From positions 1 to 22,065 of IMG/VR virus record IMGVR_UViG_3300048925_000605: a DNA stretch of 22,065 nt; one strand, given 5' to 3'. The notes beneath the pieces are model-generated. The model searched no databases and was not told the origin of the DNA. It saw nothing but the letters and a program-made list of their open reading frames with translations. The position numbers were made by a program, and so were the translations under genes. Positions 740 to 887 of the stretch are shown here, in pieces. Source of the stretch: a virus. The first letter of the stretch is position 1; each line of letters begins with the position of its first letter.

Positions 740-756
740 CGATCTCCAACAGATCG
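740..756 (-). promoter_or_regulatory. Bro-N ribosome binding site in a hairpin; C4 target a2
   Basis: Read on the minus strand, CGATCT (756-751) and AGATCG (745-740) form a 6-bp stem with a GTTGG loop, so the Shine-Dalgarno GGAG lies across loop and stem. The segment CTGTTGGAG (752-744) is a perfect 9-base complement of CTCCAACAG (851-843) inside the C4-like RNA. Pairing would cover the ribosome binding site of the antirepressor and block its translation. Confidence 0.72.
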
Positions 757-763
757 TCCGACC

Positions 764-781
764 CCGGGGGCTAATTCCCGG
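764..781 (-). promoter_or_regulatory. Hairpin presenting C4 target b2
   Basis: On the minus strand, CCGGG (781-777) pairs with CCCGG (768-764) around the 8-base loop AATTAGCC. The loop carries ATTAGCC, a perfect 7-base complement of GGCTAAT (835-829) in the C4-like RNA. Placing the complement in a hairpin loop is the geometry expected for a kissing contact between antisense RNA and target. Confidence 0.68.
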
Positions 782-808
782 AAGGGTCCCCATAAAGTGG
801 GGACCCTT
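782..808 (-). other. Perfect 10-bp stem-loop just 3' of the C4-like RNA
   Basis: AAGGGTCCCC (782-791) and GGGGACCCTT (799-808) are perfect inverted repeats around a 7-base loop. The hairpin starts 3 bases after the C4 closing stem and ends where the b2 hairpin begins. No T-run follows on the minus strand, so it is not a classical terminator in the direction of Bro-N; on the plus strand only three Ts follow. It may define the C4 3' end, help processing, or separate antisense from target. Confidence 0.6.
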
Positions 809-811
809 TGG

Positions 812-887
812 TGGCCGGACGCGCCATGATTAGCCTTACCGCCTGTTGGAGCGGCGCACCCGAAGGTGCTCACGACACGCCCGACCA
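812..887 (-). ncRNA. c4: C4-family antisense RNA controlling the antirepressor
   Basis: This 76-nt segment lies between the upstream terminator and Bro-N and is transcribed in the same direction. TGGTCGGGCG (887-878) pairs along all 10 positions (two G-U) with CGTCCGGCCA (821-812), forming a closing stem. Inside are a hairpin GCACC-UUCG-GGUGC (869-856) and a short GCC/GGC stem (855-841) whose loop shows CTCCAACA, then an apparently unpaired GGCTAAT (835-829). The two exposed segments are perfect complements of target sites near the Bro-N start (752-744 and 775-769) and match a second, partial set upstream (951-945, 935-929). C4 RNAs of phages P1 and P7 are antisense RNAs of about this size that repress an antirepressor operon through two such segments, and the family is widespread in prophages. 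Assignment rests on structure, complementarity and gene context; a covariance-model search was not possible here. Confidence 0.8.

Follow-up and report, generated by a model that had tools for sequence, protein, structure and literature searches.

A C4-family antisense RNA directly upstream of a Bro-N gene in a podovirus-type phage and its probable role in antirepressor control

The window, by which we mean the whole 22-kb fragment of viral DNA analyzed here (22,065 nt), ends at the stop codon of a Bro-N gene, so that the remainder of the immunity region, including the repressor, lies out of view. The protein encoded by this gene matches PF02498 with 68.1 bits and PHROG 130, "anti-repressor Ant", with 145 bits; these profile matches establish its identity, while its role as an antirepressor would follow by analogy with P1/P7. 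The window also encodes a head-tail connector (PF12236), which fits a podovirus, and to this extent the assignment made previously from the letters alone (in the following called the sequence-only reading) holds. On the minus strand, the elements follow each other in the order promoter, 5′ hairpin, a1, b1, terminator-like hairpin with U6, C4, extra hairpin, a2, b2 and Bro-N:

1010-982, minus: probable sigma-70-type promoter of the C4/Bro-N transcript, TTCACA-17 nt-TATAGG (predicted by comparison with relatives)
974-957, minus: 5′ leader hairpin GCGCGG-UAUGU-CCCGCGC (sequence)
954-941, minus: a1 hairpin GGGA-TTAGCC-TCCC, with a1 ATTAGCC at 951-945 complementary to a′ (sequence, relatives)
935-926, minus: b1, CTGTTGGCGC, upstream complement of b′ (sequence, cognate tests)
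930-916, minus: possible antiterminator stem GGCGC-UGCCC-GCGCC, -9.4 kcal/mol (fold; function putative)
922-889, minus: intrinsic-terminator-like hairpin (922-895) followed by U6 (894-889), between b1 and C4 (independent scan, covariation)
892-807, minus: C4 antisense RNA (full-length match to Rfam RF01695, fold, covariation)
851-843, minus: b′ loop of C4, CTCCAACAG (sequence, target comparison)
835-829, minus: a′ single-stranded segment of C4, GGCTAAT (sequence, target comparison)
808-782, minus: extra strong hairpin AAGGGUCCCC...GGGGACCCUU between C4 and a2 (sequence; nearest relatives only)
781-764, minus: a2 hairpin with a2 ATTAGCC (775-769), complementary to a′, in the 8-nt loop 776-769 (sequence, fold)
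752-744, minus: b2, CTGTTGGAG, complementary to b′ and including the Shine-Dalgarno sequence (sequence, fold)
735-1, minus: Bro-N/Ant-type antirepressor, 244 aa, the target gene (PF02498, PHROG 130)

The sequence-only reading had recognized a C4-type antisense RNA at this place and had named the Rfam covariance model as a means of checking it. We ran this model, and the observation was confirmed: RF01695 is matched over its full length (model positions 1–87 of 87) with 58.1 bits, above the gathering cut-off of 45 bits (E-value 4e-9 over the window), and it is the sole Rfam match in the whole window. The predicted mature RNA (886-810) comprises 77 nt with the ends GGU...CCACC. This core folds with -47.5 kcal/mol, compared to a mean of -30.2 kcal/mol for dinucleotide shuffles (z = -5.5), none of 200 shuffles folding as well. 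The fold has three helices: a long one that closes it, one capped by a UUCG loop and a third hairpin bearing b′. The UUCG hairpin had been described before, as had the long closing helix; its length, given earlier as 10 bp, is 18 pairs in the covariance model. Judged from sequence and fold, this podovirus-type phage carries a genuine new member of the C4 antisense RNAs, a known family whose first representative was discovered in phage P1.

The two exposed C4 segments had also been described as perfect complements of two sites just before the Bro-N start, and both complements are indeed exact. The 9 nt of b′ pair with b2 (duplex -16.0 kcal/mol) and the 7 nt of a′ with a2 (-9.2 kcal/mol). Both targets sit in hairpin loops, as proposed, a2 in the 8-nt loop of a hairpin with a 5-bp stem and b2 in the hairpin CGATCT-GTTGG-AGATCG with its GTTGG loop at 750-746. 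The inclusion of the Shine-Dalgarno sequence in b2 was likewise correct, the motif GGAG lying at 747-744 and the Bro-N start codon ATG at 735. The pairing score at this downstream site is 40.5, compared to a mean of 24.6 and a maximum of 30.5 for composition-preserving shuffles of a′/b′ (n = 60), and the window's own C4 is the best partner there, the 58 other C4 RNAs reaching at most 33. The a2 and b2 hairpins taken alone are weaker evidence, surpassing shuffles by a small margin only (z = -1.9). A candidate for a2 inside the Bro-N gene was dismissed as a chance match; a search limited by order and distance yields 775-769. Bro-N starts 71 nt past the end of the C4 model, without any open reading frame in between, hence a P1-type icd gene is absent from there.

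We then considered relatives of the locus. When annotated phages were searched at the DNA level with the locus from the window, no matches were obtained. Related Bro-N genes were present in 27 viral records, of which 14 have an RF01695 match, nearly always just upstream of Bro-N. For the eight closest viral Bro-N relatives, C4 is present in the same record in all eight and directly upstream of Bro-N in seven. Additional Bro-N and C4 loci were drawn from bacterial genomes and viral contigs. The alignment of 31 distinct relatives revealed double changes at 25 of the 27 pairs of the C4 helices, and 98.1% of the cells are paired, compared to a mean of 75.2% after shuffling (0 of 500 shuffles reach the observed value). 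Compensatory changes, which the sequence-only reading had suggested looking for, are thus found inside C4.

The letters of a′ and b′ vary between loci, and their targets vary along with them. When the C4 RNAs of 59 distinct loci were compared at each downstream site (a2/b2), the locus's own C4 was the best of 59 in 43 cases and among the top three in 56. At the upstream site (a1/b1), the own C4 ranked best in 34 of the 59 loci and among the top three in 50. A second set comprised 45 C4 loci, mostly from Pseudomonas and other chromosomes, and here the own C4 was among the top three in 40 at each site. In the phages P1, P7, D6, SJ46 and JL22, two types of a′ and three of b′ occur in combination, and the targets a1, a2, b1 and b2 match in each case. 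In relatives carrying C4, the complementarity of a′/b′ to a2/b2 is therefore kept by covariation. Comparative sequence evidence of this kind establishes the C4 fold, its pairing potential and the co-evolution of the pairs.

These helices, both perfect loop-target pairs, the terminator and the Bro-N reading frame are all intact in the window, which makes it very improbable that the locus is a decayed copy that has lost either production of the RNA or its control of Bro-N.

The arrangement with C4 directly in front of Bro-N and without an intervening gene occurs in ~30 loci (e.g., L002–L008 and L046–L048); in others, a small gene comes first. These phages and prophages share the order and the covarying targets with the window, and the longer spacing between C4 and Bro-N is common only to its nearest relatives L002, L003 and L048. 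A similar GC-rich insert between C4 and a2 exists in L002 and L003. The direct order is hence common and no special feature of the window phage: the sequence-only reading rightly contrasted a Bro-N target lacking an icd-like gene with P1, but the peculiarity to this phage that it implied does not stand.

Two further arrangements were observed. In L056, L142 and L132, a small gene of the DUF3077 type lies between C4 and Bro-N, at the position of icd in P1. Single Pseudomonas genomes contain 18–30 C4-family RNAs each (L206–L212, L225–L230 and L241–L270, from Pseudomonas and Azotobacter chromosomes), mostly 40–55 nt upstream of small DUF6124/DUF3077-type genes ("MKKxVPDPP..." or "MFKITPNPP..."). 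These RNAs usually match their own leader and start site best, so that a chromosome harbors many parallel antisense pairs. We found no mention of DUF6124 in the literature searched.

From this sequence evidence we consider it highly probable that the C4 antisense RNA controls the Bro-N antirepressor in the window phage. The promoter near 1010-982 would give rise to a single transcript comprising the leader, C4 and Bro-N, from which the 77-nt C4 RNA would be cut, as in P1. The RNA would then act in trans on further molecules of this transcript, with a′ kissing the a2 loop and b′ pairing with b2 across the Shine-Dalgarno sequence. The Bro-N antirepressor would remain untranslated and lysogeny would be protected. 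Expression of C4, its processing and the repression are here expected by analogy with P1/P7. In P1, RNase P generates the 5′ end of C4; for the window, agreement with RNase P-type processing is limited to the GGU...CCACC sequence and the length of 77 nt.

The similarity to P1/P7 C4 (RF01695) extends over the fold, the 77-nt length, the GG...CCACC ends, the a′/b′ segments, the order a1-b1-C4-a2-b2, the position of b2 over the Shine-Dalgarno sequence and the antirepressor downstream. There are differences too. The start codon targeted in the window is that of the Bro-N antirepressor itself, whereas it is that of icd in P1/P7; in the P1-type immI operon, icd lies between c4 and ant with coupled translation, and the window has no such gene. 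Moreover, the window possesses the extra strong hairpin between C4 and a2, and its a2 and b2 are both located in hairpin loops. The sar RNA of phage P22, 68/69 nt long, is distinct in kind and does not belong to the C4 type. It blocks translation of the antirepressor gene ant by antisense pairing, as is proposed here for Bro-N (PMC12197685). The Group 1 C4-like sRNAs of Acinetobacter baumannii share the C4 fold and an apparent RNase P-type processing with the window RNA but are without known targets, unlike the window C4 with its target adjacent (PMC5320573).

The leader upstream of C4 contains elements that were absent from the sequence-only reading: a1 and b1, a second copy of both C4 targets, and the adjoining terminator-like hairpin. 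The b1/b′ duplex amounts to -14.8 kcal/mol, and the a1 hairpin is paired in 92% of the cells (15 relatives). The P1 record shows the same order a1, b1, c4, a2, b2, with a1 and b1 annotated only as "putative" target sites, and a supplement by Weinberg from 2010 reportedly lists a "c4-a1b1" motif. At the position of the 5′ leader hairpin, relatives possess hairpins of differing sequence. The probable promoter was not recovered by a strict consensus scan; sphingomonad-type relatives have a TTGNNN-17-NATANN pair at the same place. In several relatives, the promoter spacer contains a repeated GAGTC-N6-GAC-like sequence. By analogy, this sequence could be an operator of the phage repressor; the P1 record annotates a C1 operator at c4. 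Divergent from the C4 promoter, an 80-aa small, probably membrane protein is encoded at 1026-1268 on the plus strand. It matched no PHROG family, and a weak relative (27% identity, E-value 3e-6) adjoins C4 in L048 and L221.

Of the 59 loci, 51 have a terminator-like hairpin between b1 and C4, as does the window (-19.5 kcal/mol), and its stem covaries among 15 aligned sphingomonad-type leaders. In P1 it occupies 48282-48305, a position downstream of the two annotated c4 promoters. In P1-type and other gamma- and betaproteobacterial leaders (1283-1306 and its surroundings in L045; L233, L215, L190), sequences flanking the terminator with its U tract are able to pair, as in the outer stem GCGGACGT/ACGTCCGC of L233; sphingomonad leaders are without such a stem.

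These elements suggest that a1/b1 and the terminator hairpin may form a transcription attenuator, an addition to the main explanation rather than a replacement, to which we assign slightly less than an even chance. Without C4, the sequence adjoining b1 would pair with the 5′ arm of the terminator and polymerase would read on into C4 and Bro-N. This alternative stem shares part of its 5′ arm with b1 and uses part of the terminator's 5′ arm as its own 3′ arm. Owing to the overlap with b1, C4 bound there should favor formation of the terminator. C4 would then act twice, on transcription and on translation. Besides the position of the hairpin in most loci, including P1 behind both promoters, and the covariation of its stem, the alternative stem itself argues for an attenuator. 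It can form in 47 of 49 examined loci, P1 included, from sequence at the 3′ edge of b1 and the 5′ arm of the terminator, and reaches p < 0.05 versus shuffles in 28, although these per-locus p-values are not independent and their Fisher sum was not used as a probability. The arm variants are matched between loci: GGCGC/GCGCC in the window, TGCGG/CCGCA in P1, AGCGG/CCGCT in ECO95, TCGCA/TGCGA in L188, GGCGG/CCGCC in L233 and L275, and AGCGCGT/ACGCGCT in L004. The logic proposed here resembles that of the plasmids pT181 and pIP501, in whose attenuators antisense pairing blocks an antiterminator. The window shares with them a terminator-like hairpin downstream of the antisense site, but C4 lies downstream on the same strand and is no countertranscript.

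Several observations weigh against an attenuator. The antiterminator arm is nearly invariant in the sphingomonad relatives, and therefore pair counting gave no antiterminator covariation in their leader alignment. Own and foreign arms were indistinguishable in an arm swap test, GC-rich arms pairing promiscuously. In the second set, the hairpin exists in only 22 and the alternative stem in 18 of the 45 loci, and in the window a second hairpin (912-898) near the U tract could form alongside the antiterminator. In A. baumannii, C4 reads far exceed those of the upstream leader (PMC5320573); this excess could alternatively result from the stability of C4.

Alternatively, a1/b1 could serve as a decoy or in processing, or have arisen as a side effect of duplication, and would soak up C4 or shape the RNase P precursor, the hairpin and U tract being a mere spacer or an ordinary terminator. 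In about half of the second set, which is dominated by Pseudomonas, a1/b1 are kept without a terminator-like hairpin, in agreement with this possibility, and the pairing across the U tract in P1-type and some other leaders is compatible with a folded precursor. Yet a1 and b1 keep co-evolving with a′/b′, in the second set as well as among the 59 loci, and are therefore functional sites, and a mere decoy would hardly account for the strict order of b1, hairpin and U tract that most loci show. We regard this alternative as plausible, its probability lying appreciably short of even.

Returning to the attenuator, C4 would also pair with the a1/b1 copy, block the antiterminator and favor termination ahead of itself, limiting its own operon; this step is weaker than those proposed for the Bro-N start. 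Extended to C4 RNAs generally, P1 included, a second conserved function might be to pair with a1/b1 of the own leader, displace the antiterminator and terminate transcription before C4 and the antirepressor. This generalization from leader sequences is put forward tentatively, at somewhat under an even chance. If true, it would make C4 a self-limiting circuit acting on both transcription and translation, and the conserved a1/b1-terminator leader would offer a concrete explanation for sites that are labeled "putative" in the P1 record.

An immunity switch known from P1 is now placed in a phage of the podovirus type with relatives among sphingomonad prophages. C4 directly before a Bro-N antirepressor gene is a widespread design with co-evolving RNA pairs, which should set superinfection immunity.
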